Made by a program: the position numbers and the translations under genes. Source: a virus. Taken from it: 26,023 nt of DNA. Location: positions 1-26,023 of the IMG/VR virus record IMGVR_UViG_3300008219_000080, one strand, 5' to 3'. Under the pieces are notes generated by a model. The model saw only the letters and a list, made by a program, of their open reading frames with translations, had not been told where the DNA came from and ran no database searches. Positions 11,001 through 25,757 of the stretch are shown here, one piece after another (within the stretch, counting starts at the first letter, position 1; the number at the start of each line of letters is the position of its first letter).

Positions 11001-14000
11001 CTCGTGGGAATGAAACTGTTTCCGCAATATCACCATCAATAAAAATCTTACTCATCACTATACGTCCTGCATAATGACCGCCTTCTTCAAATTCAAGGTC
11101 GTTTATCTCTATACCTTCTACCGCAAACATTCTTCGCTTTGCTTCTTCTATTGCTTGAGCATTGGCAATCCACTCTTTCTGCTTGTCATCTAATAAATGT
11201 CCATATCTATCTGGATAAGTACGAATATCATTTACATTTAATTCCTGTCCTTCAAATGCGCCTTCTATTAAATGTCCGTTATCATTCGTAGCACCGAATA
11301 CATCGTCCTGAGTTCCGAGTCTACGCAGCCTTGCAAAAGCAATCTGTGCTTTCTGATCTCCCTCAGCTTTCAGCATTGCATGGGCTATCAGGGATTTAGC
11401 CAATGGGTCTGTAGCAGCAGTAGATGGGTCCAGTCTTCCCAAGATAAGCCTGAGTCCTGGCATACGCATGAACTTGGCATAGTGATCATTGATCATATTA
11501 GTTGAGAGGATAGTATCCATAGTGGACAGAGAAGATAGCTCCTCGACCAGTGGACGTACTTCAGGCTCATCAACAGTATGGAAGAGTCTTTCAGCAACCT
11601 GCTCAAGATTACCATCATCAGCTACGATATAGTCATCAACCCTGTATCCATAGAACTTCTTAGCCTGTGGTATGAGATGGGCAGGAACATTAGCTTCTAT
11701 AGTCTTGATTGATGGCTTTCTCGTATTGAGAATGTCATCAAACATATCTTTCATGGCAGGACTAAGGCTTTCTTCATGAGGACTTCCCTTGATTGCCCTT
11801 ATCACGTTAAGAAGCATATCTTTGAATCTTTCAAAGACACCTCTTACCTGTTGGTTAGGAGCATAACCAGTCATTACAAAGGTCTCAAAGGCTTCGGCAA
11901 ACTTCTCTTCCCCTGCCCTTGTCCATATATTCTTGTTGACCAGCGAATCGTATCCCTCTTTACCCATAGAGAACTCGCCAGCAATACGGAGCTGTTCTTC
12001 AGATAGCTGTCTTCTGAGAACATGCCCTATCTCATGTATTCCTGTCTGGAAGTCAGCAGCTTCTGTGAAGTTAAGCCAGTACTTACCGTCATTGTTGAAG
12101 TCAGTGAACCCAAGTACCTTTCCACCATTGGGTATATCCCCATTTATCTGGAATAGCCTCATCTGAACATTAGTCAAGGATTCAGATAAGGTAGAAAAAG
12201 CCTTGACTCCCTTGTTAGGGCGAGCCTTAAATCCTTTTGAAAGAATAAGTTCAGATGGCTCTAGAAGATTATCTTTTAATCTTATGGAGTGTACGGATAC
12301 TGTTTTATCCGTAGGTCTATCCTCCATAGTAACCAAGTGTTTGGAAACTCCGACAGTATCTTCTAACTGTTTGGCGTTTATCTTTGGATTATTTTCAATT
12401 GCGATCTCGGCAATGGCATCCAATAACTCTTGTTTGCTGGAACCATGTCGTGTTCTGGAAGTAGGTACTCCACCTAATTCCAGAAGATCAAATACAGATA
12501 TAGGGGTTTCCCTTTGTACACTAGGTCCGCTCAACCCCATCTCTGTAAACTCATCAACAGACTCAAGTAACTCTTGATTCTGAGATACCCTCTCCATTAT
12601 TTTTGGAATGCGTATATCAGAAGGAGGCTTTCCCAGACGGATATCACTATTTGTCTGCCTAGATGCAGATAACTTTTTTTCTACTTCAGCTAGTTTACTA
12701 CCCCACTCATATATATCTCCTTGAACTCTATCCACACTAGGTCCACCAATCCATACCCCTGCTGCGTTTTGGCTTGCTGGTCCATAACTTCCATCAGCAA
12801 GATTAGCCATCTCTGCAATAATATTTTGATTTAAATCCGCAATCTCTTCCTCCATCTCTGCTATCTCTAATCCTGAAGTAAATTTTTGTACTGTACCTGT
12901 AGGCCTTTCTCCTCTTATTTTTTTAGCATTAGTTAAATTTTTAAGTGCGTCATTTAACTCTTCTTTAGTATCGTCTATTTCATATTGAATACCACCTTTG
13001 TCTTCGACTGGAAGACGTTTTTGTTCGTCAGTTAACGCATCAATAGTCCTCCGCAGTTCATCAATTTCTTCTTCCATAGCAGTTATTTCTGCGTCACTTG
13101 CCTTTACCTGACCCCTTGATACCCCCTTATCGAGATAAACTTTCTGAGTCTGCTTAACGGCTGTATTGATTCTAGTGTGGAAATCACTCATACCATCAAC
13201 TACATTTTCTAAATCTTCATACAGATTTTCCCTACTAAGGTCTAAGGCAGACAGCTCTTTTCTTGCCTGAGCAATATCATTCTCTATATCTCTCAATGCT
13301 TTCTGATAAGCATCAGGATTACCGAGCATCGATTCATCATCCCAAGTACCAAGAGCTTCTAGTTGTCTTTCTCCTTTTGCAATCCTATCTTTTAGTACAC
13401 TAGCCGTATGACGTTCCGATGCTACCTTCGCCAGTGTTCCAACATCTAACAGTCTTAGAGATTCTTCGACTTCTGCCCTATGTTCAGGAGATGTAAGTTT
13501 GTTTGGAAAATAATCAACCTGATTTACCATCTCGTTATGAAGATCAGGGTCCAGAAGCCTTAAATCTGAGTCGTCTATTAACTGAGTATGTTGACCAAGT
13601 CTGTATTCCCAGCTCGGATTAGTACCAACTTCTTCACTTATTATCTGGTGTCCTAATCTTCTTACCTTATGGCTAGAGTAGTATTCTGTAAGTTCCTTTG
13701 ATGTTTTCATATCCGTGCCGATAGGAATCTCTGTTGTCTCTATCAACGCTCTTGTATCAGAGTTTTTCCAAGTTCCCCATCCTGCGGTATGCTGGACATC
13801 TTCGACAAGTTTCTCAGTAGCTTCAAGAAGCTGTCCCTTTCTACCGTCTACCTCTCCGTAGCGCATATTCGCATAAGGCATTGCTTCATCTTTATATTTA
13901 TTCAAGACAATTTGACCCGTAGAAATAGTCATCTTGTCTGCGCCCTCTGAGGCAGCATGGAACATAAGCCTTCTAAGGACTGGAATATGAAAGTTCCCTG

Positions 14001-17000
14001 TAGAGAAAATAAAGTTTGGAGGCAAGGCAAAAGTTTCAGGAGTTGTATTCTTCAGATGGACAAGCACTGCTACGGCTGCTGCACGTTCTGATGCATAATT
14101 ACGACCCCACTCATGCATACCCTCGACTACTTTATACCTATCACGATGAGTCATCTTTCCAGAAGGAAGAAGCTCACCTGCCTCTTCCCTGATACGAAAT
14201 GTTCCTACGTTACCATCTATAACATCATCAATAGACCACCGTACCCTGTTTGGTTCGGCTGTACCACGCTTACGGTTGGTAAGTAATTGGTCAGTAATTT
14301 TACCAAGTGCTTCATTAAAATTATCTGTCCACGGGTTTCTTCGATCAGTAATAGTTGAAATACGGATAATCGGAGCCTTTGTCACCCCCTGCTTGCCAGG
14401 AGCAGGATCAATTATCTGTACTGTTACATTCCCTAAACCTTCAATATCGTAGTTTCCTAAAGAATCTTTAGGTCTGATTACTGTTTCTTTACGGACCTGA
14501 TCACTGAAGATAGTTTCTGATCTTGTGTAACTTCCTTCTGGCAGTATTTCATCTTCATCAAAAGCCCGAATAATATTTTCATACTGTGCCTCCACCATAT
14601 CATCGGTGGCAGAACTGCCATTAGCAGGAGCAACATATATATCATAAGCAGGACCACTTATAGTACGCATCTCCGTAATTGCTTCAGGAGCAGCTTGTTC
14701 CGTCTTTAAATATTCTGCTGAAGAATATTCGCCCATATCCAGTTTTTCTACACCTGCTGTAGTTCGTTCTTCTAGATTAGTTAAAGGACCAGACATCCAA
14801 GAATCACCAGTCTTGTTAATCCAGAATGCAGGGTGTCCAGGTGTCCAATTTGCACCTGAGCCTCGACCACTTACATACATAGGGTCTGTTATTGCTTCTA
14901 ATAATTCTTCTTTACCTAATCCAATCATCTTCTGTATCATGTCAGACTGGACTTCTTCTACATGGAATATCTTCTTTACAACTTCTACTCCATTTTCAAG
15001 TTCTGTTACTGACCGTACAGAATATCTTCCTGATACGAATATATTTGTTCTTGCAGATGTTGGAATGGGAGTATGAGAAACTGCTCCACCTTCCATTAAT
15101 TCCCTTGTTTGCCCATATAGCCCGTCAACAAGGTCTTTATTCATCATATTTACGCCATACTGACTGCCGTAATGACCATGAGGATACTCTAATTCTCCAA
15201 GCGCACTACCCCTTTTGTCCCAGTCACTAGGACGATCTTCTGCCAGTGGACTCATAGCCTTTCTGATAGCAGATTCCTCTGACATATTGGGAACATCGAG
15301 CTTGAGTAGTATTACTCCCTGACGCTCGGCTGGACCATGCAGAGTTGCATTGAACTGTGTCTCGGAATACAGGTCAGATATATTAAACTCAACTATCTTT
15401 GCCCTGTTTGTGTCCATATGCTCCCGTAGAGCATGTATGGATATCCTTTTGCCCTTGTTATCCCTGAGCAACCTGTTAATACCAAGGGCTTCCAGTTCCT
15501 CTGAGCTGATTTTTAGCCCTGAGAACCTGCCCATCGCTTCATTTTTAGGAACATTACGTCTATTAGTACCTTTAGTAGTGCGATCATTAAGGTGATTAAA
15601 AAGGTCATCAGCATTAAAGGTTTTATCTCTGTCTCTCAATAACCCCTGTGCGCTTGTTCCTCGTATCTCCCATACATAATCGAGCCATTCATCGAAGTTA
15701 TGCTTAAAGGGAATAACATCCGTACTTGGATCAACTACCTTAAAGAGATACCCCTGTGGGGCGAACATATTAACGCTGTTGATAGACTCTTCAAGAGCAC
15801 TGTTGGCAGCACCGTCAGATATCCTTGAAAAGCGCATCTGACCAGCAAGAAAATCAGTATCTCCAGATGTGCTGTTGGAAATCTGACCAATTATCCTAGT
15901 CTGTAGATCAGCTTCTGAGTCATTTATACCCATATCTATCATCTGCTGTCTAAGCCTTACAGAGTTTGTACCATACTCTGCTATATCAACCGATGGATCG
16001 AATGCCTTTAGGTTATATAAAGCGTGGAAATCAGACTTAAACGTGCCTGACATACCATTTCTGGCAGCTTTCCACTGCCTCCACATGGGTTTAATATAAG
16101 CATCAGCAGGTCCGAAGATCGCAGCGAATGGAGGAGAAGCAAACTCAAGAGTATTGAGTGCTGCTTCAAAGTCACCCATCAGACCTTCTTCATCACTATA
16201 GAATAGACCTCCCTGAGCATTGATTTCAGGGTTGAAGACTATGGATGCACCAGCAGTGGGAATAGCCGCAGCAAACTCTGCTCCTATCTTTACTCCCACT
16301 TCTGCCATATTCTGGGGAACTGGACCTGCGCTAAGAGAGTTTACTATTCCGCTTCTTAGGTCTCTTGCACTTACTTCACCTATGATATCTGGTGAATGTA
16401 TGACATTTTTTTTACGCCATACCTCTTTAAATAGACCAGTATTATTTGCAATAGGTCTTCCGTTCTCATCTTCTTCTGGACCATAAGTGATATGGGGTAT
16501 GGCTTCCTGTGTTCTCTCGTACCCTTCTCTGCGAAGCCTATTGGCTTCGATAGAAACAGTACGCCTCTTATCAGGGTCTAGAATTAGTTCTACTGGCTCT
16601 GCCCATATCTTAGTAGATATATCTGTGATTACATTGGGAGCACCAAGCTGGCGATTATAAAATACTTCCTCTCCCCTTGCAGGAGAGAGATTAATATTTA
16701 TAGTTCCGTCATCTTTCACACCTTGAGCAAGAACACTTTCTGAGATTCCTAACTCTGAAGCAATAACATTCGCTTCTTGAGCCTTACCAGGTAAAAGAAT
16801 CTGATCCCAAGATGGAACATCCCATGTATATCCCTTGCCTGCAGAAAGATTGAGAAGTCCCTCGGCAACATTCTTGTAGGGCGCAGTAGCATACTGCCTT
16901 ATTCTCTGGTTTGCCTCAGTATATCCTTCAGGTAGAAGAGCATCAGTTGCAACATCAGTTATATCTTTTACTTGACCAAAATACTGGAAGGGTAGAGAAG

Positions 17001-17244
17001 GTAGTACCTCACCCATTGTGCCGAGCATACTCTGGATTCTGGAGGTCCAGTCACCCCCACGCTGACCGCCTTCAGGGGGAGAATCCCATACTAGCGCATC
17101 GGATATGGTTTTAAACCATTCTGATTCGCTACGTCTTTGTAGATTCTCTTTCCACTCATCTCGGCTTGTTGCTACCTTGAGAGCTGGAATGGGAATCTTG
17201 TCCCACCATTTCTCTTTTCCGTAATACCAATGCTCATTTGACAT
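8071..17244 (-). CDS. Giant polyvalent virion protein with zincin metallopeptidase domain
   Basis: 3057 aa, ATG at 17244 overlapping the upstream stop (TAATG). Residues about 600-1130 follow a pattern seen in large phage polyvalent proteins: RISIHALREHM, EEVQSD at 763-768, and the LRRLMFHAASEGADKM...STGQ segment ending at 1111. Residues about 1250-1490 are long coiled coil. Residues 1737-1741 are HEIGH, a zinc-metallopeptidase helix, followed about 40 residues later by EEKFAEAF, which offers a glutamate third ligand (Glu1780 or Glu1784). The last third carries hydrophobic segments near 2445-2490 and 2650-2670 and a LLAPRYNRA region typical of the C-terminal part of such proteins. Likely packaged and ejected with the DNA, acting on host proteins or membrane. 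Domain names are by pattern, not by search. Confidence 0.85.
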   Translation of the reverse strand: MSNEHWYYGKEKWWDKIPIPALKVATSRDEWKENLQRRSESEWFKTISDALVWDSPPEGGQRGGDWTSRIQSMLGTMGEVLPSLPFQYFGQVKDITDVATDALLPEGYTEANQRIRQYATAPYKNVAEGLLNLSAGKGYTWDVPSWDQILLPGKAQEANVIASELGISESVLAQGVKDDGTININLSPARGEEVFYNRQLGAPNVITDISTKIWAEPVELILDPDKRRTVSIEANRLRREGYERTQEAIPHITYGPEEDENGRPIANNTGLFKEVWRKKNVIHSPDIIGEVSARDLRSGIVNSLSAGPVPQNMAEVGVKIGAEFAAAIPTAGASIVFNPEINAQGGLFYSDEEGLMGDFEAALNTLEFASPPFAAIFGPADAYIKPMWRQWKAARNGMSGTFKSDFHALYNLKAFDPSVDIAEYGTNSVRLRQQMIDMGINDSEADLQTRIIGQISNSTSGDTDFLAGQMRFSRISDGAANSALEESINSVNMFAPQGYLFKVVDPSTDVIPFKHNFDEWLDYVWEIRGTSAQGLLRDRDKTFNADDLFNHLNDRTTKGTNRRNVPKNEAMGRFSGLKISSEELEALGINRLLRDNKGKRISIHALREHMDTNRAKIVEFNISDLYSETQFNATLHGPAERQGVILLKLDVPNMSEESAIRKAMSPLAEDRPSDWDKRGSALGELEYPHGHYGSQYGVNMMNKDLVDGLYGQTRELMEGGAVSHTPIPTSARTNIFVSGRYSVRSVTELENGVEVVKKIFHVEEVQSDMIQKMIGLGKEELLEAITDPMYVSGRGSGANWTPGHPAFWINKTGDSWMSGPLTNLEERTTAGVEKLDMGEYSSAEYLKTEQAAPEAITEMRTISGPAYDIYVAPANGSSATDDMVEAQYENIIRAFDEDEILPEGSYTRSETIFSDQVRKETVIRPKDSLGNYDIEGLGNVTVQIIDPAPGKQGVTKAPIIRISTITDRRNPWTDNFNEALGKITDQLLTNRKRGTAEPNRVRWSIDDVIDGNVGTFRIREEAGELLPSGKMTHRDRYKVVEGMHEWGRNYASERAAAVAVLVHLKNTTPETFALPPNFIFSTGNFHIPVLRRLMFHAASEGADKMTISTGQIVLNKYKDEAMPYANMRYGEVDGRKGQLLEATEKLVEDVQHTAGWGTWKNSDTRALIETTEIPIGTDMKTSKELTEYYSSHKVRRLGHQIISEEVGTNPSWEYRLGQHTQLIDDSDLRLLDPDLHNEMVNQVDYFPNKLTSPEHRAEVEESLRLLDVGTLAKVASERHTASVLKDRIAKGERQLEALGTWDDESMLGNPDAYQKALRDIENDIAQARKELSALDLSRENLYEDLENVVDGMSDFHTRINTAVKQTQKVYLDKGVSRGQVKASDAEITAMEEEIDELRRTIDALTDEQKRLPVEDKGGIQYEIDDTKEELNDALKNLTNAKKIRGERPTGTVQKFTSGLEIAEMEEEIADLNQNIIAEMANLADGSYGPASQNAAGVWIGGPSVDRVQGDIYEWGSKLAEVEKKLSASRQTNSDIRLGKPPSDIRIPKIMERVSQNQELLESVDEFTEMGLSGPSVQRETPISVFDLLELGGVPTSRTRHGSSKQELLDAIAEIAIENNPKINAKQLEDTVGVSKHLVTMEDRPTDKTVSVHSIRLKDNLLEPSELILSKGFKARPNKGVKAFSTLSESLTNVQMRLFQINGDIPNGGKVLGFTDFNNDGKYWLNFTEAADFQTGIHEIGHVLRRQLSEEQLRIAGEFSMGKEGYDSLVNKNIWTRAGEEKFAEAFETFVMTGYAPNQQVRGVFERFKDMLLNVIRAIKGSPHEESLSPAMKDMFDDILNTRKPSIKTIEANVPAHLIPQAKKFYGYRVDDYIVADDGNLEQVAERLFHTVDEPEVRPLVEELSSLSTMDTILSTNMINDHYAKFMRMPGLRLILGRLDPSTAATDPLAKSLIAHAMLKAEGDQKAQIAFARLRRLGTQDDVFGATNDNGHLIEGAFEGQELNVNDIRTYPDRYGHLLDDKQKEWIANAQAIEEAKRRMFAVEGIEINDLEFEEGGHYAGRIVMSKIFIDGDIAETVSFPRAGGVGRVGAKSTQEKRRVFETEKEAIAAGYRYLNDDEALSLNLQSAYRRVADKRAVDYIVQNVVWSRTSAAPQELLLRNNVAIERVDAAKKLIDELQRAKRGGQITAQTRKSIETLLPEMEGMLDDVSAISLDQLVKAGRVASDQPIDATPRKGAIKALFNKVKELEVEVATIEASGAEVPSELINRLNKMKRRLGFTKFAVREAYENYAATGDFEYTFSRSARSILMEDKVGAIDELLEMVRGTPYYHTVGDNRYTRYRGGFIDTLRSDAADVAAEKSLLEEKIKKKHLTEGSLQSKVPAFTGRFFEEDQPTNLGFIKDEGTGEMRRIKGSDVDDIIVKSMVENQEFSKILNSVNTVNSALRFFQLAGDMSLFGIQLLFLMGHATTHPKWLYDTMKGFVHAFIDPTVHAKVIDENKELLERHPGFLLSTGGTEFTEFTRVLSNAGFVRAKPIKIAAEVLGKDPTRIIPTAGKLYMGFLRGAQQGFESAIDIAGIELLKSLDHKAVDAISTQQIDDFTNEFRGLANSSRLGTTAKQRQWESLALLAPRYNRAIVAMLADVGRGGLRGDEARKKLASGIAAISAMAVAFSLARGEDPDEIVEHFTPTSPKFMTWNIDGTNVGFGTKVRSLIKLSASIYTTVQQGEGDKLNDWSMDNPGFRFIRGNLSPILSTGVDSLMGRTYMGEPVWGEGWNIASHAKNFTMTELLPKTMPIWAQAVLLEGGNVQQRGVKGVSEFFGGRGYPESSYQLIQGYAKDIIGIDYEDMEPFERRLLRQHLKDVLDPMMEERIARGDKNAQYWDALNKNDEDRIIDEEALLRQFYNPRKYPQFLIGGANTLREEFARIQNQYAQNRAAINETFAMYQDDVEFDSKDPHKFIMQEWYALYDLAKYDESDVFDHDRLERLQRAFWDRKLPDGQSYKDYQDFIYRNTSTAEHPDAYQNLLPKSTVSRWRRAETMQAEFLEKRGNWSKILDNTGR

Positions 17245-17579
17245 TAGAAGTAGATTTGTCTGGTCCTCGGATTAAACTGGGATGTAAAGTTTCCTCTCAT
17301 CTCTGGTGGAAGAGCAGTGTATTTCTCTGTCCAGTCATAGTCCTTGAGAAATCCAGCAAAGGTATTCTCAGTTTCAGTAGGTATAGTTCCCTGCCTGAGA
17401 AGTCCACCCAGAGACCCAAGATACTGGTTATATACGTTTTGAAACTGGCTCTGGTAATGACGCTGCCCAGATGGTGCACCCCATTCTTCCCCATAGCTGT
17501 AATAAGCAGCAGCAGGATTTAACTCTAGGTACTGACCTGGAACATCGCCAAATTCACCCCAGTCATATTGGTTTGACAT
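17244..17579 (-). CDS. Hypothetical virion protein, 111 aa
   Basis: ATG at 17579, one base from the upstream stop; the stop overlaps the giant gene start as TAATG, implying tight translational coupling. The protein is rich in Tyr, Gln, Gly and Phe, with YQSQFQNVYNQYLGSLGG and a C-terminal NPRTRQIYF. No motif recognised. The composition and the coupling suggest a small internal virion partner of the giant protein, but this is inference. Confidence 0.7.
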   Translation of the reverse strand: MSNQYDWGEFGDVPGQYLELNPAAAYYSYGEEWGAPSGQRHYQSQFQNVYNQYLGSLGGLLRQGTIPTETENTFAGFLKDYDWTEKYTALPPEMRGNFTSQFNPRTRQIYF

Positions 17580-18149
17580 TTATATACCAAATGCTTTCCA
17601 TACTGATCCAGGATCAGTACCTTGAGCATAATCAAGATAACTTCCTGTCTGTCCTGATCCTGCCCACTGGTCAAACAATCTTTGAAGGATAGCCTGTGTC
17701 TCTCCCCTGAGAGCAAGAGGTGATCTTGACAGTGCTGCTTGGTTCACAATTCCAGCCTGTCGAGCAGCTACCTGTGCAGGATCGGACCCTTCAACAGCCC
17801 CGAATCTCTGCTGCATTCTCTGTACATCCTCTGGTGTGTATCCTGCTCCTGCAGTACCGCCAAGAGCACTCGAAACATCTGCTGCTCTTTGCTGCCACTG
17901 TGCAGAGGTCATAGGCGAATAAGCACCTGCGCCAGTACCGCCAAGAAAAGATGCATATGGGTTAGTGCCTAAGTCTGTATCTGGATTATATCCCTGTTGG
18001 GGAGCAGTCCAGTATGCCATCTGAGACATTGGTCCGTAAGCTGCTCCTGCAGCCCTCCCAAATAACTGGGTAGGATCAAACTGCTGAGAAAGCCAGTACC
18101 TGTAAGCACCTTCCATCGGGTTGAATGTTGCTGATGTTGCTTGTGACAT
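17580..18149 (-). CDS. Internal virion-type protein sharing a C-terminal module with its neighbour
   Basis: 189 aa, ATG at 18149 with AGGAG upstream. The first two thirds are Gly/Ala/Tyr/Gln-rich and low in charge (for example GYNPDTDLGTNPYASFLGG). The C-terminal part from residue 134 (VNQAAL, then LRGETQAILQRLFDQW, then SYLDYAQG) matches in order the C-terminus of the 615-aa product encoded upstream (VNQKAL, LRNETSKILHRLHNDW, SWLEYVHE). The two adjacent genes therefore share a module. Function unknown; position between portal and giant virion protein suggests an internal or ejection protein. Confidence 0.72.
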   Translation of the reverse strand: MSQATSATFNPMEGAYRYWLSQQFDPTQLFGRAAGAAYGPMSQMAYWTAPQQGYNPDTDLGTNPYASFLGGTGAGAYSPMTSAQWQQRAADVSSALGGTAGAGYTPEDVQRMQQRFGAVEGSDPAQVAARQAGIVNQAALSRSPLALRGETQAILQRLFDQWAGSGQTGSYLDYAQGTDPGSVWKAFGI

Positions 18150-18158
18150 AACTAACTC

Positions 18159-20006
18159 CTATCCTCCCGGACTTAATCCAGAACCTATCTGTGTATTTGT
18201 AGGTATCATACCAAAATAATCATTTTCGTGAACATACTCAAGCCACGACACAGTTGGGTCTTTATCAGGAGTAGTAAGCCAGTCGTTATGCAGACGATGT
18301 AATATTTTAGAAGTTTCATTCCTCAGTGTCGGGTGAGTATTCTGCATAATCGGAAGAGCAGCAAGTGCCTTCTGGTTTACTACTGATCTGGGACCTTCAA
18401 AGAATGAATGTCTCCATCTATATGCTTGTAGTTGCTCAGAAGAATAATCCTGATCTACCCCAACAGGATCATATCTATCCCACGTTCCACCAGGCTTATC
18501 AGAGTCTACCTGCCTTACAACATCAATAATCTCGCCTATCCTGCCAGTAAGAGAATCTCCAGTGAGCGGAACATAAGTCTGTAAAAAGTTATTATATCTA
18601 TTTTGATCATATATATTTGACTGTGGACCGAATACTATCCCACCTTGAGGTTCTGCCCCTATGACATGACCACCTTCTAGCTTCCCTCCCCACGGGTCAT
18701 CTTCCGTAGCCTGTGTCAAGAACTGTGTGTAAGTAGTTCTCTGAAGGGGATCATTTGAAAGTCCCTGATCTGAATGGTATTTGAATACGGCAGGACTGCC
18801 TGCTGCACCAAATTTATCATTAAGAAAATCTTGGTATATAGGACTCCAAGGAACAGAAGAGTAGCTGCTGGGAGTAAAGTCTGAGTCAGGTCTTGGGTCT
18901 TCAGCTAAATCTGGTGGAAAAGATGTAGAAACAACTTCTTTTGTCCAGAAAGGACTTAATTTATATGTCTTATCTAAAACCGCCCAGGGTTTATCAGTGG
19001 GTAGGTTCTGACGGAGGAATTCTTTACTTCTTCCTACTATAGTAGCAAGAACACCAAGAGCATTATCTTTAGCTGTTAACCATTTTTCTAAATCGTCTTT
19101 ATTATTTTTATCAAATCCAGATAATACCCCTGGCATATTATCAAGAATTATTCCTAATGCTTCTTCGAGATGACCCTCCCCTGAAGGTGCATGTATGTCA
19201 GCAGCATAAGATCCCAAAAACCATTTCATAAAATCTGATCTATGGAAGTCCGTTCCCCCTGGATAATAAATCTGCACTATCTCTGATTTTATCTTTTCAA
19301 GATCACTGAATCTTATAGAGTATGAGCTTTCTCCTGCTTCAAGTTCTCTCTCTAAACGAACTTTTTCTAAATCTGCTACAGGACTAGCTGCTCCCCAATA
19401 TAATGACTTGCGATTATCGTATGCCTGCTGACCAGCATCAGTATCAAATACAATCTTGTCAGTATCAGGCCACCATTTACGATCAACCCTTTCTTTTTTG
19501 AACTGGTAACTGATTCCAGTTGTAGAATCGGTCCAGTATGATGTTTCACCATATTCAGTAGGTTCAGGCTGCTCACCACCAGTACCGATCATCTCTGGGT
19601 CCATTGTCAGTCCGAAGTCATCAACTGGTGTATGCCATCCACGAACTGCACTAGGAACATTAGATACAGGTGGCGCAGTTCCTGGACCTGCAAACGCTTC
19701 TGGGTCTTCTTCAGGATCAGCAGGAGTTGCAGGAATATTAACTGGAGGTGTAAGAGGTAAATTTAATGGACTGGTTAATGGAGTAGGTTGCTCCACTGAC
19801 TGACCCGGAAGAACTGGTCCCTGAACAACAGGAGGAGGGGCTACTGGTTCTGGAGGAAGTTCGGGTTCATTGAATCCCCCGTACATAATCGGGTCTACAT
19901 AAACTCCACCCATGCCATAAGATATGGTTGAAGTTACACGACCAGCATCATTGATCCTGTCAACAAACATCCCATTTTCATCTCGGGATACCCTTCTAAA
20001 CCCCAC
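18159..20006 (-). CDS. Portal-proximal virion protein with Pro-rich linker, 615 aa
   Basis: GTG start at 20006, preceded by AAGGGGG which lies across the portal stop. Residues about 45-110 are strongly Pro-rich (ELPPEPVAPPPVVQGP and similar), as in an extended linker. The middle is globular with many aromatic residues. Residues about 541-600 carry the module shared with the 189-aa protein encoded next (VNQKAL, LRNETSKILHRLHNDW, SWLEYVHE). No enzymatic motif recognised. By position it may be an internal core or ejection protein assembled at the portal. Confidence 0.72.
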   Translation of the reverse strand: MGFRRVSRDENGMFVDRINDAGRVTSTISYGMGGVYVDPIMYGGFNEPELPPEPVAPPPVVQGPVLPGQSVEQPTPLTSPLNLPLTPPVNIPATPADPEEDPEAFAGPGTAPPVSNVPSAVRGWHTPVDDFGLTMDPEMIGTGGEQPEPTEYGETSYWTDSTTGISYQFKKERVDRKWWPDTDKIVFDTDAGQQAYDNRKSLYWGAASPVADLEKVRLERELEAGESSYSIRFSDLEKIKSEIVQIYYPGGTDFHRSDFMKWFLGSYAADIHAPSGEGHLEEALGIILDNMPGVLSGFDKNNKDDLEKWLTAKDNALGVLATIVGRSKEFLRQNLPTDKPWAVLDKTYKLSPFWTKEVVSTSFPPDLAEDPRPDSDFTPSSYSSVPWSPIYQDFLNDKFGAAGSPAVFKYHSDQGLSNDPLQRTTYTQFLTQATEDDPWGGKLEGGHVIGAEPQGGIVFGPQSNIYDQNRYNNFLQTYVPLTGDSLTGRIGEIIDVVRQVDSDKPGGTWDRYDPVGVDQDYSSEQLQAYRWRHSFFEGPRSVVNQKALAALPIMQNTHPTLRNETSKILHRLHNDWLTTPDKDPTVSWLEYVHENDYFGMIPTNTQIGSGLSPGG

Positions 20007-20009
20007 GCA

Positions 20010-21848
20010 CTACCCCCTTGGTCCCAGTAACCCCAGACTCCTTAATGCCTCTTCTGCTCCCTGACCGTTCTGTGCACCTGGTCTCGGAGAGCCAGGCGGA
20101 ACATTGGGACCACCCTGTGGTGTCGGGGCAGGAGGCGGAACGCCCATCATGGCATTAGGCATAACCATTGGGTTTGCTGTCGGTGGACCTCCCTGTCCGC
20201 CACCAGCTCCTTGAGGAGCACCGGGACCTTGAGGGGCACCCGGCTGCTGTGGCATCATGCTTTGCTGTCTCATCATCTGCTTCTGCATTAGTAAGTGCAT
20301 CAACTCACCGTAGTAGAACTGGGCAAGATCAGGTCGTCCACGTTCTTCAGTTGCCTGAAGAAGAGACCAGAGAGAGGCTTCTGGCAGCACTCTCTCTGCC
20401 ATCTGTTCTTTGATTGAGTCTTCTATAGAATCAGCATCTTGCATTCCAAGTATCTTATCCCTGACATAGATGTCTGACAGCAAGGGGGTCGGACCCTCTC
20501 TTGCCATCTGCGCCATGCTCATACGGGACATATCATCTTCTGGTAACTGGCTTACAAGAGATATCTCTGGAGTTCCTGCCATGCCTATGGAGTCAGGAGC
20601 CACAGCCTCACTGAAATAAACCCTGTTTCTGTCTCTTCCGCTCACACTGACAGGATCGTATATTCCAGTGGAATACTGGTCGCATATAAGATGAGAAATC
20701 TGTATGTAGGCATCTTCCATTGCCACTATCCGTGGCTGTAGAACACTGTCTATACCCTGCCTGAGAGTATTAATGGCAAATCCCGATAGCTGGAACTGCA
20801 GGTCTCCGTACACGGTATGCGGTATAGCCCCACGCTGAAGTTCTCCTGAGACCATGCCCATATAGGCTCCAGTCTCCTTGGCGACTTCCATCAGTCCAAG
20901 GGGCTTTATATCCTCTCCCTGTGCAAGAGCAACCTCGGCTCCTGCCTTGTACGGGTCTTCATCAAGTGTCTTCTGCCCATCTCTTGATGTGATGGTTATC
21001 CCCTGCTTACGGGAACGGGCAACCATCTCCATCATCACTGACATGGTGAAGTTGTGCTTATCGTATATCTCCCTGTTGGGAGCAAAAACGGATTCCCCGT
21101 ACTCAACGATAGTGTCGGTTACGGATGTATTATCTATATTCTGTACGAGCGGTTGAGGTCCAACCATACCTATAAACACTGGAACCCTGTCGGCTCCGTG
21201 GGGAGTAGCCTGCTTCAGTATGGTATCGCCCGTACAGACAATATTATGCTCTTCATCATAGTAGTCATAGACTTCTATAGGTGTCTCGTCATCCTGCTCG
21301 TCAAGTTTAATACTGTACTGCTGAAGAATCTCATCCTTTGTTTTGTGTATCCGATAACATGCCCACGCAAGACCCTCTTCACCTTCACCCCAGTATGTAT
21401 GAAGAGGGTCCCACGGAGTTATATCAACCTGTGTTCTCTCCTTGGAGTCGATGTGAAGTAATGCCCTTCCTGCATACCATCCTCTGAGAGCAACAAACCA
21501 TGCCAACTGTTCTCTAAGTGATGGCTGAAGCCTGCGCCGTAGCCGTTCATCCGCAGCCCTGAGAATGCCTACGAGAAACTTCTCCTTGGCATCATTGACT
21601 TCTCTCATCTCCCTCGGCTCTTCGATGTTGGGGATTCGTATGATCAGCTCCGCAGAACTCATCCATGAGATTATCTTGTCGGCATAAGTGCGTGGCTCGT
21701 TGGATGTATATGACTCGTACCCGTCACCAGCATCGTATGGGCGCATAATGTACAGGTCATAGTCAGATTGCATCCTATCTCTGAAGGGATATGTCGAGTC
21801 TCTGTGTCCCTCAACCAGTTTTGCTATTTCGTCTGCAGTCTTTCTCAC
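20010..21848 (-). CDS. Portal protein
   Basis: 612 aa from a GTG at 21848 that overlaps the terminase stop (GTGA). The order terminase-portal is the usual one. The N-terminus fits a portal: a helical lead (RKTADEIAKLVEGHRDSTYPFRDRMQSDYDLY), then a region with an Asn-rich YTSNEPRTYADKIISWM segment, a beta-rich wing (TPWDPLHTYWGEGEE, EEGLAWACYRIHKTKDEIL), and a long helical region with the GELQRGAIPHTVYGDLQFQLSGFAIN segment. The last 100 residues are low complexity, rich in Gln, Pro, Gly and Met, and end at LGLLGPRG. It forms the dodecameric DNA channel. Family-level identification by context and layout. Confidence 0.82.
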   Translation of the reverse strand: MRKTADEIAKLVEGHRDSTYPFRDRMQSDYDLYIMRPYDAGDGYESYTSNEPRTYADKIISWMSSAELIIRIPNIEEPREMREVNDAKEKFLVGILRAADERLRRRLQPSLREQLAWFVALRGWYAGRALLHIDSKERTQVDITPWDPLHTYWGEGEEGLAWACYRIHKTKDEILQQYSIKLDEQDDETPIEVYDYYDEEHNIVCTGDTILKQATPHGADRVPVFIGMVGPQPLVQNIDNTSVTDTIVEYGESVFAPNREIYDKHNFTMSVMMEMVARSRKQGITITSRDGQKTLDEDPYKAGAEVALAQGEDIKPLGLMEVAKETGAYMGMVSGELQRGAIPHTVYGDLQFQLSGFAINTLRQGIDSVLQPRIVAMEDAYIQISHLICDQYSTGIYDPVSVSGRDRNRVYFSEAVAPDSIGMAGTPEISLVSQLPEDDMSRMSMAQMAREGPTPLLSDIYVRDKILGMQDADSIEDSIKEQMAERVLPEASLWSLLQATEERGRPDLAQFYYGELMHLLMQKQMMRQQSMMPQQPGAPQGPGAPQGAGGGQGGPPTANPMVMPNAMMGVPPPAPTPQGGPNVPPGSPRPGAQNGQGAEEALRSLGLLGPRG

Positions 21849-23164
21849 CAGTGCTTCACCTTTATCTTCTTCCTGTCACTAGCGTAGCTGTACCCAAAAT
21901 GGTACACGAGACCGTAAATCAATGCCTTTACACCATGATTATACTTATCTTCTGGCACGTTACCAACTATATTTCCGTCCCTGTCCATCTTCCATCTGTA
22001 TGCCTGTGACTGACCAGTGAAAGGATTTGCCACTGCGCCGAACTCGGAGAGAACACCACTGCATTTTGAGTCTATACTCAACTTCGGGTAGCCAGTGATG
22101 GGATCGACTTTCAGGAAACTCTTCAGTCTTTCCGTCCCATCGTTGATGGGAACTTTCTGTGAGGCAAGGTATAAACCAGTGTTAGCCATCCACACCTCGG
22201 CAGGTGCTGGCATAGCCTGATGCTGAGTGCCTGCGATGTCTATAACCCCGTACTCCACATCCTGCCACCACGGTTTGGTCATGGCTATAGTTGCAACTTC
22301 TTCCGTGACAAGACCTGTCTCATATATCTCGTCAAAGACTCTCACATGATCGTCTATGATCTGTACCGCTTCCAGCGCATAACCGCCAGCATACCCAGGG
22401 TCAATCCAAATATGAACAGGCTCGTGTGGGATATAATCAATTTCTCCTGCGTGTATATTGGCTCTGAACTCGTTGAAGACAAGTCCTCTAGGCGGTACAG
22501 GCTTTCCTTCAATCCTCTCCATAAAGAAATCATCGCTCGACACCGCCTCCAGTCTTCTTATCTCAGGATCATTCCTGCCACCAGGGTAGAGGTGGTGGTT
22601 GGAGTAGCTGGGCAGGGAGAATGACTGCTCGTCATTTACCCCCGACTCCCAAGCCGTAAACGTCTGCGGATACCATCCAAGAGAGCTTTCAAATGTCCCA
22701 CCAAGGAACAGCCAGCCACCTTTCGGGGCGCACCTTCCACGCATTCGGTAGAAGGTTTCCAGATCAAGTTGTGACGCTTCACAGCCAACGATACCATTGG
22801 GTGCTCGCATTGCGAGTGTCCTTGGGTCCTTGGCTGACTTGGTTTCGATCCGTGTCCCATCTGCAAGTACGATCCTGCCAGGGTCTACCCTTTTTGTAAC
22901 CTCGGCAAGTATGCCGAGCTTTGCAAAGTCCTCAGAAAGATATTCAAACTCCGCTCTCGTTCTCTCGTAATCCGCAGCTACCAGCCAGTATAAACCAGGA
23001 CTGTCGTCCTCAAGGAACTTATGGAGTAGGAACTTGGAAGCCACCATCGACTTACCAGCCTGCTCACCCCCTGCAACGAGTATAAACCTCTTGCCTGAAT
23101 TTAATATCTGGGACTGCTCATCCGTAGGGTCAAAGCCAACTATCTCAAAGACAGGAGAAGCCAT
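21845..23164 (-). CDS. terL: Terminase large subunit
   Basis: 439 aa, ATG at 23164. The ATPase half shows Walker A GGEQAGKS (32-39). The Walker B-like strand is GIVGCEASQ (124-132), in which the usual Asp before the catalytic Glu129 is Cys128. A coupling motif GGT follows at 155-157. The RNase H-like nuclease half shows WIDPG (Asp255), FDEIYE (Glu279), and GVIDIAG (Asp309). A C-terminal NHGVKALIYGL helix (409-419) stands where DHAxDAL is usual, so one expected acidic residue is not obvious. It translocates DNA into the prohead and cuts it. The coding end overlaps the portal start. Confidence 0.92.
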   Translation of the reverse strand: MASPVFEIVGFDPTDEQSQILNSGKRFILVAGGEQAGKSMVASKFLLHKFLEDDSPGLYWLVAADYERTRAEFEYLSEDFAKLGILAEVTKRVDPGRIVLADGTRIETKSAKDPRTLAMRAPNGIVGCEASQLDLETFYRMRGRCAPKGGWLFLGGTFESSLGWYPQTFTAWESGVNDEQSFSLPSYSNHHLYPGGRNDPEIRRLEAVSSDDFFMERIEGKPVPPRGLVFNEFRANIHAGEIDYIPHEPVHIWIDPGYAGGYALEAVQIIDDHVRVFDEIYETGLVTEEVATIAMTKPWWQDVEYGVIDIAGTQHQAMPAPAEVWMANTGLYLASQKVPINDGTERLKSFLKVDPITGYPKLSIDSKCSGVLSEFGAVANPFTGQSQAYRWKMDRDGNIVGNVPEDKYNHGVKALIYGLVYHFGYSYASDRKKIKVKHW

Positions 23165-23274
23165 CAGTACTTCTTCTTCTTAGTCATCTTCTTCCCTGAC
23201 TGCTTGGCGTACTTCGTAGCTGCAGCCTTACCCTTCTTCGTATAGGCAAATTGCCTCTTACCCACCTTCGGCAT
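23164..23274 (-). CDS. Very small Lys-rich protein (36 aa) before terL
   Basis: A 36-codon frame starts at 23274 with an excellent Shine-Dalgarno (AAGGAGGT, 5 bases before the ATG) and its TGA overlaps the terL ATG (TGATG). The product begins MPKVGKRQFAYTKKGKAA and ends in KKKKY. It contains 14 lysines and no acidic residue. I recall small basic proteins beginning MPKVGK in environmental phage genomes, often near packaging genes. A role in DNA binding or DNA condensation is a guess from composition. The strong ribosome binding site and coupling support that it is a real gene. Confidence 0.75.
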   Translation of the reverse strand: MPKVGKRQFAYTKKGKAAATKYAKQSGKKMTKKKKY

Positions 23275-23557
23275 ATCGAACCTCCTTCTTTGGTTTAATT
23301 CGTTTGCGAATGAATTGAGTTTAAACTCCCCTTTTACTATCAATGTACCCGTGCCTTAACTGATAGGCACTAGTGCCTTTACTAGTAAATGTTGCCATAC
23401 TAGCAACATAACTCTAGTTTAAACTACGTTTTGGCCGATCGGACAAAACTACGACAGATCATCTGGCGCATACTTTACAGTATTCTTTTACAGTGTCTCA
23501 GTTTAAACTCTAAGTGTTGCAGTGTTGCAGGGAATGAAGCCACCGTCCATCCCCACA
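23275..23557. promoter_or_regulatory. Palindrome-rich intergenic region upstream of terL
   Basis: This 283-bp gap holds no credible gene but many dyads. Perfect palindromes are GAGTTTAAACTC (23317-23328), AGGCACTAGTGCCT (23365-23378), TTTACTAGTAAA (23378-23389), TAGTTTAAACTA (23415-23426) and AGTTTAAACT (23500-23509). Hairpins are ATTCG/CGAAT (23298-23311), GTGCCT/AGGCAC (23351-23370) and ATGTTGC/GCAACAT (23389-23409). Direct repeats are TTTACAGT (23474 and 23487) and a tandem AGTGTTGC (23513-23528). It may include the late promoter, regulator sites, a packaging site or an origin; no clear sigma70 -35/-10 pair was found. Confidence 0.55.
23428..23449. promoter_or_regulatory. Operator-like 22-bp dyad
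   Basis: Arms GTTTTG and CAAAAC flank a perfect inner palindrome CCGATCGG, with one mismatched pair (G23434/A23443) between inner and outer arms. An imperfect dyad of 11-base half sites is the usual size for a dimeric repressor site. It lies 154 bp upstream of the 36-aa gene and terL. Confidence 0.45.
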
Positions 23558-23728
23558 TCACTCACCGTCTAATAGCTTCATCCCCAGGGCAATGATACCA
23601 CCAGTACATCCAGTAACCACTGCTATGTACTGCTCGCCATCTCTCATAAGAGCCACAGTGCTGATAAGTCCCAGTACAAATATCGCTAATATAATCTGAG
23701 GGCGTATCTTTCTAAACAAATCATTCAT
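23558..23728 (-). CDS. Small two-helix membrane protein, holin-like
   Basis: A 56-codon frame from the ATG at 23728 to TGA at 23558. AGAGAG lies 5 bases upstream as a modest ribosome binding site. The product has a short N-terminus MNDLFRKIR, a hydrophobic segment at about 10-27 (QIILAIFVLGLISTVAL), a turn MRDGEQY, and a second hydrophobic segment at about 36-52 (IAVVTGCTGGIIALGMKLL). Two membrane spans with a short basic N-terminus and a size under 100 aa fit a class II holin, which would time host lysis. No endolysin was seen in the window, so another membrane role is possible. Confidence 0.6.
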   Translation of the reverse strand: MNDLFRKIRPQIILAIFVLGLISTVALMRDGEQYIAVVTGCTGGIIALGMKLLDGE

Positions 23729-23866
23729 ATTAACTCTCTTAATATATATAGACTATATATATAGTATATATACAGATAAGTCTCTAAAGACTTATCTGTC
23801 TATTTATATAAAATAAACTGGCACTGGTATAGATACCATACAAACACAAAGTCTAAGCCATGCCCC
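23729..23866. other. AT-rich gap with hairpins between terS and the holin-like gene
   Basis: The 138-bp gap holds a 12-bp perfect hairpin (23772-23783 with 23788-23799, loop CTAA), a second hairpin TGGTAT/ATACCA (23825-23838, loop AG) and an alternating TA tract around 23739-23771. The large hairpin lacks a clear U-run in either direction, so it is not a classical terminator. The TA tract melts easily and could serve a promoter or origin. Confidence 0.5.
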
Positions 23867-24367
23867 CTACTCATCTATCTTACTAGTCAGTATCTCGTTA
23901 ACTTGATCAAGAGCTGATTTCTCTGGTTCAGGAGCTTCAGCAAGCTGTTCAGGTGAGTCTTTAGACAAGGCTCTAAGCTCTCTCAGTACATCCTTAGCAG
24001 TATCATCGTTCATGACGACAGTAGGTCTATACTTCATAGGCAAGTTCGCATTCAACAGTGTGATCAGCAAGATCGGATTGGACTTAGCGTCCTGCATCTT
24101 AACTCTCTCCAATGCCAACTGCTCAAGTGACTCACAGAACTGGAAGTCTGCTTCTTCTAACCGTTCCATGAAACCAAAGTAGTTATCCTTCTGCCACTTC
24201 ATTACTGTTCGATACTTAACTCCAGCATAACTAGCAGATGTAGTCTTGCTCCTCGTCTCACTGTAGCAAGATAAGAACTTATCTTGGTTTCTCCAGCTAC
24301 GTTTTTGGCTAGGACTTAGTGCTTTATAAGTATCATCAGTCTTGCTATCTATCCTAGTACCTAGCAT
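23867..24367 (-). CDS. Terminase small subunit-like protein
   Basis: 166 aa, ATG at 24367 with GAGAGG upstream. The N-terminal half is a helix-turn-helix type domain: KFLSCYSETRSKTTSASYAGVKYRTVMKWQKD. Then come FMERLEEADFQFCESLEQLALERV and SNPILLITLLNANLPMKYRP, an order typical of small terminase proteins that recognise the packaging site on phage DNA. The C-terminus is acidic and probably flexible, as in partners of the large subunit. It lies separated from terL by the holin-like gene and a palindrome-rich gap. A 9-bp hairpin (24267-24275 with 24278-24286, loop AA) lies inside the gene. Assignment by pattern and position. Confidence 0.75.
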   Translation of the reverse strand: MLGTRIDSKTDDTYKALSPSQKRSWRNQDKFLSCYSETRSKTTSASYAGVKYRTVMKWQKDNYFGFMERLEEADFQFCESLEQLALERVKMQDAKSNPILLITLLNANLPMKYRPTVVMNDDTAKDVLRELRALSKDSPEQLAEAPEPEKSALDQVNEILTSKIDE

Positions 24368-24605
24368 ATTTACCTCTCTGACCTAGCGGTAAACCGCTAG
24401 GTTTAGTAGCTTGAGTATGTTTACATACTCTTTGTCGAATTTCCGCTGAGTTTACCACAGACTAGCTTGCTAGTCTGGCAGTTTGAGTTTAAACTGGACT
24501 CTGAGATGTAAACATCTCAGGTTGAAATTGGAGGTCGCTGACTCCCCTCCTGGAAGAAAGAGCATTCAATACCTTCCCTAAATACCCCTCCCCATCAGAA
24601 GTCTA
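24368..24605. promoter_or_regulatory. Divergent intergenic region with a run of hairpins
   Basis: This space separates the minus-strand late genes from the plus-strand genes. Hairpins in order: ACCTAGCGG/CCGCTAGGT around TAAA (24381-24402), GAGTATG/CATACTC around TTTA (24413-24430), CAGACTAGC/GCTAGTCTG around TT (24458-24477), CAGTTT/AAACTG (24479-24496, includes GTTTAAAC at 24487-24494), CTGAGATG/CATCTCAG around TAAA (24501-24520). The first lies just upstream of the small terminase ribosome binding site. Positions 24521-24605 hold only a weak GGAGG/CCTCC pairing and nothing else clear. Confidence 0.6.
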
Positions 24606-24672
24606 CCACCCTAAGATCGCTTCGCTCTCAGTGTCAATGGTAATACATTGACACAGAGTCTTAGGGAGGTGG
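24606..24672 (+). promoter_or_regulatory. Structured leader: outer stem with nested hairpin
   Basis: CCACCCTAAGA (24606-24616) pairs with TCTTAGGG and GGTGG (24659-24672, 3-base bulge). Inside lies a perfect 9-bp hairpin GTGTCAATG/CATTGACAC (24631-24639 and 24646-24654, loop GTAATA). The outer right arm carries the GGAGGT (24665-24670) that precedes a short leader frame. The inner arms contain TTGACA on both strands, so divergent -35 elements are an alternative reading. Confidence 0.45.
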
Positions 24673-24673
24673 G

Positions 24674-24733
24674 ATGAATACATCGGCAATTTCGCCGAAC
24701 AAACCCCTCAGTAAACTGAGGGAGATGCCCTAA
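24674..24733 (+). CDS. Possible 19-aa leader peptide
   Basis: ATG at 24674 opens 19 codons (MNTSAISPNKPLSKLREMP) ending with TAA at 24731. GGAGGT lies only 3 bases before the ATG, which is short but usable. The stop sits in the loop of the hairpin TGCCC/GGGCA (24726-24739), just before the ribosome binding site of the next gene, and the frame spans CCCTCAG/CTGAGGG (24705-24722). This layout resembles a leader that could couple translation to folding of downstream hairpins. Chance is possible for so short a frame. Confidence 0.3.
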   Translation: MNTSAISPNKPLSKLREMP

Positions 24734-24757
24734 AGGGCAAGGAGGACATAAATGTCC
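24683..24757 (+). promoter_or_regulatory. Four consecutive hairpins ending on the start codon of the 138-aa gene
   Basis: TCGGC/GCCGA (24683-24698), CCCTCAG/CTGAGGG around TAAA (24705-24722), TGCCC/GGGCA around TAAA (24726-24739) and GGACA/TGTCC around TAAA (24744-24757). The last one encloses the ATG at 24752-24754 and takes in the last two G of the Shine-Dalgarno AAGGAGG (24739-24745). Folding would reduce access to the start site. Confidence 0.55.
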
Positions 24758-25168
24758 AAGCTGACCAAAGCAGCACTAGCGAAGCTAGAGAAAGCTGGAG
24801 ACGACGGCAAGATGAAAGTCGGAGACTTTCTAGCACTCTGGCTAGACCCTAAGTCTAGCCTAGCTGGAACTAAGGGGAATATCGGTGAAGAATTCACCGA
24901 TAAGAAAACTGGTCTTACTCGTAAGACCACTAGCTTCCACTCAGTACTGAGTGGATTCAACGAAGCCTTTAGGCTTTACTACGACTGTGACAGCAAAGCT
25001 GTCATTTCGGCGATGGAAAAAGCCGAAGAGCTAAAACTAATCTCGGTGAGATTAGTCGGTCGAGGTCAAAGCGGTAAGGGAGTTCCCGGTGCTAGAATCT
25101 CTGCATACAGAGATTCTAGTGGAAGAGGCAAATCAGCCTTGGCTGATTTGGGAATCAAGGTTAGCTAG
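24752..25168 (+). CDS. 138-aa basic protein of unknown function, hairpin-saturated gene
   Basis: ATG at 24752 with AAGGAGG 6 bases upstream; TAG at 25166-25168 lies inside a 24-bp palindrome. The product has many Lys, Arg, Ser and Gly residues, an N-terminal helix (KLTKAALAKLEKAG), a middle DKKTGLTRKTT segment, and a helix-rich part SKAVISAMEKAEELKLISVRL followed by a Gly-rich GRGQSGKGVPGARISAYR. The last part could be a winged-helix DNA-binding unit (helix, then wing), but I do not recognise the family. It is the first gene on the plus strand, so an early regulatory role is plausible. Its DNA is unusual: nine perfect inverted repeats with arms of 7 bp or more lie fully inside the frame. Confidence 0.75.
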   Translation: MSKLTKAALAKLEKAGDDGKMKVGDFLALWLDPKSSLAGTKGNIGEEFTDKKTGLTRKTTSFHSVLSGFNEAFRLYYDCDSKAVISAMEKAEELKLISVRLVGRGQSGKGVPGARISAYRDSSGRGKSALADLGIKVS

Positions 25169-25182
25169 CTAGCTAGCTAACC
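24776..25182 (+). repeat. Array of unrelated perfect hairpins within and at the end of a coding sequence
   Basis: Inverted repeats (arm length, span): 5 bp 24776-24788; 7 bp 24814-24830; 8 bp 24840-24860; 10 bp 24880-24902; 9 bp 24910-24929; perfect 20-bp palindrome 24936-24955; 6 bp 24963-24976; 7 bp 24988-25004; 6 bp 25006-25027; 9 bp 25036-25056; 12 bp 25092-25119; 10 bp 25129-25150; perfect 24-bp palindrome 25159-25182 made of TAGC/AGCT units. Loops are mostly 2-5 bases. Arm sequences differ, so these are not copies of one element. Confidence 0.85.
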
Positions 25183-25187
25183 CACTA

Positions 25188-25219
25188 GCCCTACAGGACT
25201 TTAGTCCTGTAGGGCTTTT
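25188..25219 (+). terminator. Strong intrinsic terminator
   Basis: A perfect 12-bp stem (25188-25199 with 25204-25215; arms GCCCTACAGGAC and GTCCTGTAGGGC) closes a TTTA loop and is followed on the plus strand by TTTTCTCGTTT. It lies 20 bases after the stop of the 138-aa gene. It would end or attenuate that transcript before the 163-aa gene, unless the T-run (4 bases) is too short for full termination. Confidence 0.75.
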
Positions 25220-25265
25220 CTCGTTTATAGCTAACCTAAATCCTAACCTAGCAAGGAACTAAGCC

Positions 25266-25757
25266 ATGCCTAAGAATCAAGCGAAACTAAGAGTACTAGA
25301 AGTGACTACAGTAAGTGACATATGCTTCCAGTGCTCTAGGGAATGTAGAACTACTATCAACAGTCCTAAAGGACTGATCTACCTATGCTCTAACCAGTGT
25401 CAGCATAACTTCCTGCTTCAAGCAGGACTAAAAGGCTACAACCAGATTAGAGACAAGGAAGACCTGAAGCTAACTACAGTCGGCAAGCTGAATGAGTTAA
25501 CAGCTAAAGAACTAGAGAGAATCTACAGGTTTAAACACAAGCTAACAAGAGACCAGATGAATAGAAACAAGGAAGGTGATTCTATCGACAGGCTATTTAG
25601 CAGCATGGGTTTGAGGTTAAACCCAAAGAAACCTAGCAGAAGGGTACAAACTAGGATGCCGTTTGACTGGGAATGTGACTGTGCTAAAGCAGAATGCAAG
25701 GTATGTAGAGCTACAGGCTTAGTCACCGATGAACAAGTAGAGAAACTGCCTTGGTGA
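25266..25757 (+). CDS. Zinc-binding protein with two Cys clusters, function unknown
   Basis: 163 aa, ATG at 25266 with AAGGA 8 bases upstream. The N-terminal half shows Cys20-x2-Cys23-x3-Cys27 and Cys41-x3-Cys45, a treble-clef or MYM/TRASH-like layout. The C-terminus shows Cys137-x-Cys139-x4-Cys144-x2-Cys147 followed by ATG (residues), like half of a DnaJ-type zinc centre. Between them is a basic helical segment (LERIYRFKHKLTRDQMNRNKEG). Such proteins often bind nucleic acid or protein partners; no family was recognised. Three local hairpins lie in its DNA (25361-25376, 25411-25427, 25606-25625), far fewer than in the gene before it. Confidence 0.75.
   Translation: MPKNQAKLRVLEVTTVSDICFQCSRECRTTINSPKGLIYLCSNQCQHNFLLQAGLKGYNQIRDKEDLKLTTVGKLNELTAKELERIYRFKHKLTRDQMNRNKEGDSIDRLFSSMGLRLNPKKPSRRVQTRMPFDWECDCAKAECKVCRATGLVTDEQVEKLPW

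Follow-up and report, generated by a model that had tools for sequence, protein, structure and literature searches.

The window analysed here is a single virus record of IMG/VR (IMGVR_UViG_3300008219_000080; 26,023 nt), and the first gene of its rightward operon, which we call hp, is built to a large extent from small perfect inverted repeats. Comparison with other genomes shows that these predicted mini-hairpins belong to an array that is fixed in genome position, independent of the gene it occupies and covarying in its arms; its units pair by Watson-Crick rules only, are symmetric with respect to strand, have a preferred geometry and are evenly spaced. On balance, we consider it probable that hp lies in an early-operon hairpin island, where the DNA would be selected, beyond the protein that it encodes, for sequence-independent mini-hairpins acting as sites that are read by their structure. 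The interpretation given in the original prediction, which had been made on this DNA before the present analysis, is partly supported overall.

Hairpins in the window

Leftward late genes and rightward genes meet in a divergent junction at approximately 24.4 kb. The late side contains the genes for the major capsid protein (6399-7274), the large terminase (21845-23164) and, at the junction, the small terminase subunit (23867-24367, minus strand), which has 2 dyads per kb and is not hairpin-rich. The hp gene (24752-25168, plus strand; 417 bp, 138 aa) encodes a small, basic protein without a match in Pfam or PHROGs. Its predicted model is weakly winged-helix-like; a winged-helix identity was considered but not adopted, since the resemblances to PDB sequences and folds are weak (best E 0.015-0.045). 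Homologues are present in about a dozen distinct IMG/VR contigs, with G42, F62, H63, S67, G68 and N70 invariant, and none were found in isolated phages or GTDB genomes. A tRNA search gave no hits, Rfam yielded no known RNA family at the gathering threshold, and there are no direct repeats or iterons of at least 10 nt in 24300-25300, nor a repeated unit sequence of the CRISPR or TIGR type.

As originally predicted, the hp ORF holds nine perfect dyads (arms of 7-12 bp, loops of 0-5 nt), with a tenth lying across the stop codon. The series starts with a 7-bp hairpin with loop GGA and a C-G closing pair (24814-24830, a site shared by the homologues L011 and L013), followed by an 8-bp hairpin with a loop of 5 nt (24840-24860), a 10-bp hairpin with loop GAA (24880-24902; L011 and L019 have homologous hairpins with different arm letters), a hairpin of 8-9 bp with a loop of 2-4 nt (CTCG; 24910-24929) and a 10-bp dyad with a spacer of 0 (24936-24955). 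After a 6-bp hairpin (24963-24976), in a stretch that is covered by a different hairpin in L011, L019 and L017, come a 7-bp hairpin with loop AAA (24988-25004; in L011 the pair GACAGC/GCTGTC is changed to GACACC/GGTGTC), a 9-bp hairpin with loop GGT (25036-25056), a 12-bp hairpin with loop CATA (25092-25119; L011 and L019 have other hairpins at or near this site) and a hairpin of 9-10 bp with loop CTTG or TT (25129-25150; covarying in L011). The dyad across the stop codon is a 12-bp palindrome (25159-25182), and a hairpin of 13-14 bp followed by a T-rich tract, resembling an intrinsic terminator (25187-25216, plus strand), marks the predicted end of the hp transcript.

Six further dyads are found in the leader (24368-24751, 384 nt): a 9-bp hairpin with loop TAAA (24381-24402; L011 has one at the equivalent place with different letters), hairpins at 24413-24430, 24458-24477 (loop CTTG) and 24501-24520 (loop TAAA), a 9-bp hairpin at 24631-24654 (where L011 has GTGTCAAC/GTTGACAC) and one at 24705-24722 (loop TAAA).

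The dyad spans add up to 189 of the 417 nt of hp, matching the predicted 45%, and the arms by themselves to 39%. The early estimate of about 0.15 dyads expected by chance was of the right order: the mean number of dyads of at least 7 bp is 0.17 when codon order is shuffled, 0.25 in a dinucleotide shuffle and 0.48 when both the protein and the codon pool are kept. Even these last, codon-preserving shuffles, proposed at the time as a check, never reach the observed density (maximum 4 in 1000). Per kb, hp has 21.6 dyads against 0-6 in the other ORFs of the window. It had also been noted that hairpin centres fall in different codon phases; the phases do differ, but they are not used uniformly (middle, first and third position in a ratio of 64:35:21 for the whole hairpin set), the rarest phase being the one least compatible with coding. 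The identical sequence is present in three other IMG/VR contigs.

Homologues of hp

Against synonymous shuffles, the hairpin enrichment of hp reaches a z of 14 in the window and 9.2, 8.2 and 6.4 in three homologues. L011 and L013 (53-55% local protein identity) have nine hairpins and L019 and L021 (47% identity) six, mostly with different arm letters and at sites that are partly shared with the window gene. Enrichment is weaker in L110 (z 7.2), L025 (6.6), L017 (4.6) and L106 (4.2) and near zero in L010, L094, L016, L030 and L024. Given these z values and the variation in arm letters, the hp protein is retained with and without hairpins, and the hairpins are retained with changed letters. The expectation that homologues preserve the hairpins thus holds for part of the family only: it stands for others at 47-60% identity, where compensatory changes are seen, and fails for the near-zero group, which keeps the protein but loses the hairpins, so that the island is not essential in all relatives.

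Other kinds of repeats were observed in some contigs. In G015 (the contig of L123) four near-identical hairpins of 8-10 bp, of the CTTGTCCCGATTTCGGGACAAG type, lie about 60 nt apart at 6683-6895; they occupy the island position in a relative without a variable-arm array, and here the sequence, not only the structure, is repeated. A different repeated element, which is G-rich, is present in L130: GGGGTAGGGG..CCCCTACCCC palindromes, approximately 13 in number, are scattered over 8.7 kb. In L146 CGGGACCGGTCCCG palindromes recur at at least four places in 8.7 kb.

The island follows genome position

In a sister lineage, with a large terminase about 70% identical to that of the window, the locus is occupied by three genes: one of 233 aa, a member of the Gp88 family (PF17338, E 2e-30) and one of 219 aa. 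They have 11, 14 and 5 dyads of at least 7 bp, respectively. Within this lineage, each of six Gp88 genes (61-100% identity) carries 17-19 hairpins (arms of at least 6 bp; z 12-20), against 0-4 in 28 Gp88 homologues from other phages (about 38-46% identity). In L074 the locus has a third ORF, unrelated to the others, which holds ten hairpins. Whole-contig maps show one island per genome. It sits at the divergent junction, approximately 1-6 kb away from the large terminase gene on the upstream side; this location does not depend on the gene that occupies the junction, and the island is weak or absent in some relatives. Overall, the island tracks genome position and not the gene: it begins at the junction of late and early genes and extends into the rightward operon. 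For five strong genomes the dyad density in the island region is 6.8 per kb, with triloops in 90 of 153, and outside the island zone it is 1.1 per kb, with flat loop sizes. In most contigs the island coincides with, or lies close to, the cumulative GC-skew minimum, though gene orientation alone would give that.

The tetranucleotide CTAG is in excess in the island, by 5-7x: 19.5 against 3.6 per kb in the rest of the genome for the window (24370-25240) and 22.2 against 3.0 per kb for G002 (24000-24900). The Gp88 lineage does not show this to that degree.

Paired changes in the arms

The codon alignment of Gp88 shows how arms are exchanged: AGGGTTAG/CTAACCCT, AGGGTAAG/CTTACCCT and AGGGTCAG/CTGACCCT substitute for each other, with synonymous V and L codons. 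Where both partners differ, Watson-Crick pairing is kept in 181 of 298 cells at the true register, against 35-90 of 183-282 cells for partners slid by whole codons (the cells are sequence pairs and not independent events). Among the four closest sequences the numbers are 30 of 42, and 0-13 of 2-47 for slid partners. Six of the eight paired sites in these four sequences include an amino-acid change, and two alter both residues (I to L together with D to E, and P to S together with I to V). Since paired arm changes thus include paired amino-acid changes, the hairpin constraint reaches the protein, which tolerates it by taking it up in synonymous sites and conservative replacements. This covariation, found in two unrelated gene families, gives strong support to the earlier statement that the repeats are of structure and not of sequence.

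Geometry, pairing and spacing

The modal unit has a 7-bp stem, a 3-nt loop and a C-G closing pair. Loops of 3 nt occur in 103 of the 163 distinct hairpins (about 12% in shuffles), and 84 of these 103 are closed by C-G. On the coding strand 39 triloops are GNA and 30 its complement TNC (together 69 of 103); as this ratio equals that of the background (0.077:0.058), neither strand is preferred. Triloop arms of 2, 3 and 4 bp are at chance (220, 57 and 10 observed, 219, 56 and 12 expected), those of 6, 7 and 8 bp are in large excess (21, 35 and 18 against 1.5, 0.5 and 0.3), and no arm of a triloop hairpin exceeds 10 bp. For coding-region hairpins in general, arms are 6-12 bp.

Perfect stems number 136 against 6.2 expected. 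With a finder that permits one extra pair type, stems containing G.T (14 against 20.3 expected) or A.C (31 against 28.2) were counted as well. Spacing is even, with a median of 45 nt and a coefficient of variation of 0.39, compared to 0.61 for random placement (minimum 0.455 of 500). Whole-gene folding is much better than in shuffles with both DNA (z -8.2) and RNA (z -9.65) parameters, and the energies do not discriminate DNA from RNA. The DNA nearest-neighbour set used has no GNA bonus, so the argument from the loops depends on the literature on phage N4.

Comparison with known systems

The closest likeness is to the early promoter hairpins of the N4 virion RNA polymerase (vRNAP; Schitoviridae), which have a 7-bp stem, a 3-nt loop, C-G closure and a GNA loop; our hairpin finder, when applied to N4, recovers its 7-bp C-GGA-G hairpins. 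For extrusion under physiological supercoiling, these promoters need the C-G closing pair together with the 5' G and 3' A of the loop (PMC4496689). In both cases the hairpins lie in the phage early region and the stem letters are partly free, while in N4 the structure is required. However, there are three promoters in N4, marked by conserved bases ahead of the start sites, whereas the island consists of dozens of hairpins with unrelated arms, inside coding genes and in either strand orientation. Conserved promoter bases of the N4 type were not found in the stems or flanks, as the arms differ, and the 3057-aa late protein of the window shows no similarity to RNA polymerases in Pfam, PHROGs or PDB sequences: an N4-type polymerase was not found.

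Perfect inverted repeats in coding sequence are also known from mitochondrial genes of Nematomorpha, for which an origin by template switching was proposed (PMC6649704). These too reside in functional protein genes and are gained and lost between species without imperfect intermediates, but their arms reach 142 bp and they are scattered (PMC6649704), in contrast to the arms of 6-12 bp, the fixed loop size and sequence, the even spacing and the single genome position observed here. Lambda ori, located in gene O, is likewise a cis-acting DNA element within an early coding gene; its iterons share one sequence, whereas the island has no direct repeats. A search of the open-access literature gave no description of hairpin arrays in phage coding genes, which is weak evidence of absence.

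Weighing the explanations

Taken together, these features point to strand-blind selection at the level of DNA and away from folding of the mRNA; the mini-hairpins selected would be of the type found in the N4 early promoters. Of the readings offered originally, DNA structure is favoured over both mRNA folding and template switching; over RNA it is preferred because pairing is Watson-Crick only, loops are strand-symmetric and the geometry resembles that of N4 extrusion. The main rival is nevertheless a role in the mRNA, in which folding of the early transcript along its length would protect it from RNases, prevent loading of Rho or tune translation. What keeps this the main rival is that the island runs with the rightward operon; it also takes in the leader and ends around terminators in some genomes. 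The strong folding of the transcript agrees with this, and the even spacing would suit protection over the whole length. We still regard it as unlikely, given that G.T in this clade does not exceed chance and has no advantage over A.C, so that G.U pairs are left unused, and that GNA and TNC, set against their background, occur equally often on the coding strand. Moreover, triloops dominate and GNRA or UNCG tetraloops are not prominent, whereas in rRNA 3-nt loops make up about 6% and 4-nt loops 42% of hairpin loops and UNCG is stable in RNA only (PMC8794818); the Turner RNA parameters show essentially no sequence preference for triloops.

Template switching at quasi-palindromes, which makes and repairs palindromes without any need for a function, appears less probable again. 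Arms that are perfect, hairpins that are gained and lost between homologues, and double changes are its hallmarks (PMC8794818, PMC8604942) and are all seen here. The process is also expected to invert loops and to rewrite single arms, yet 321 comparisons of homologous hairpins gave 0 loop inversions, and one-arm rewriting is rare: lineage-specific hairpins differ in both arms in 33 of 38 cases and in one arm in 5 (a test that is limited by divergence). Together with the peak in arm length at 7 bp, without an excess at 3-4 bp or arms above 10 bp, and the even spacing, this fits selection for a hairpin of set size better than template switching, against which the fixed genome position also speaks. 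Evasion of a defence that targets nucleic acid of both strands, where guides derived from the island, be they RNA or DNA, would fold back on themselves, would account for strand symmetry, Watson-Crick-only pairing and possibly the placement in early genes. The median spacing of 45 nt is too wide for this, leaving many stretches of 30-36 nt without a whole hairpin, and our literature search gave no precedent; we rejected the idea as very improbable. Chance, codon bias or an assembly artefact can practically be dismissed: synonymous, codon and dinucleotide shuffles refute the first two, and the last is excluded since the sequence recurs in three other contigs and the pattern is kept, with covariation, in diverged relatives.

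Under the preferred reading of DNA-level selection, the island hairpins would be DNA structures. Negative supercoiling might extrude them, as in the N4 early promoters, or they might fold while the DNA is single-stranded in the course of early replication or transcription. The array might then provide sites, recognised by their structure, where a phage or host factor is loaded, positioned or limited in a hub of the early region, most likely for initiation of replication or of early transcription. On this view, early viral genes would carry a DNA signal that is based on shape and has not been described before. Protein-coding DNA would here be under selection for local shape that is strong enough to bring about paired amino-acid changes, and, if the DNA reading is true, an unknown step of early infection makes use of extruded or single-stranded hairpins, with N4 as the well-studied case. 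The islands further offer clean covariation material for telling apart DNA-level selection, RNA-level selection and template switching.

Islands in unrelated contigs

A scan for three CCGAAGG or GCGAAGC cores at 21-50 nt from each other returned at least 238 loci, and among the matches listed eight have dense hairpins with distinct arms. Seven of these were mapped as whole contigs (island GC 0.40-0.67). The island starts at or near the switch from leftward to rightward genes in the unrelated contigs G017, G018, G021, G022 and G023. In G018 it extends over 10 kb, with 12, 11, 14, 12, 11, 9, 13, 7, 11 and 9 hairpins in successive kb against approximately 0-2 per kb on the left side, and crosses ORFs including a DUF2201/VWA gene; the island of G017 includes a MoxR/CobS-type AAA gene. 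Arms are in excess at 5-8 bp and triloops are the commonest class; the search pattern biases the loop letters in these loci, but loop size, arm length and position much less. Stems with G.T are mostly near chance, except in the GC-rich L256 (26 against 13.4) and L339 (21 against 13.0, with A.C at 32 against 22.6), and spacing is less even (coefficient of variation 0.55-0.86).

It is conceivable, although we lean slightly against it, that diverse dsDNA phages carry a shape code in the early operon, laid over whichever genes are present, in which a factor reads evenly spaced C(GNA)G DNA mini-hairpins on either strand, whatever their arm sequence; this would constitute a new class of cis-acting element. 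A feature that is fixed in position, independent of the gene and recurrent in unrelated phages is, in any case, easy to search for.

Additional observations

The 3057-aa late protein (8071-17244, minus strand) contains a metallopeptidase-like HEIGH motif and, apart from phrog_9880, matches no clear family. In its place after the portal-side gene, two relatives, L070 and L074, encode proteins of 808 and 1018 aa. Between the terminase genes (23165-23866) about 700 nt are free of any ORF of 60 aa; this gap contains an AT-repeat palindrome and a 12-bp hairpin (23742-23799), and G008 and G010 have similar AT palindromes close to their small terminase genes. In L003, a phage, the PEP-utiliser mobile domain (PF00391) and the ATP-binding domain of PPDK (PF01326) are encoded by two separate genes of the early region (12376-12690 and 15378-16166), as if a PEP synthase had been split. 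The same early region contains RecT/Bet-like annealing protein and exonuclease genes (17030-19416), and recombination-linked replication is likely in L003.
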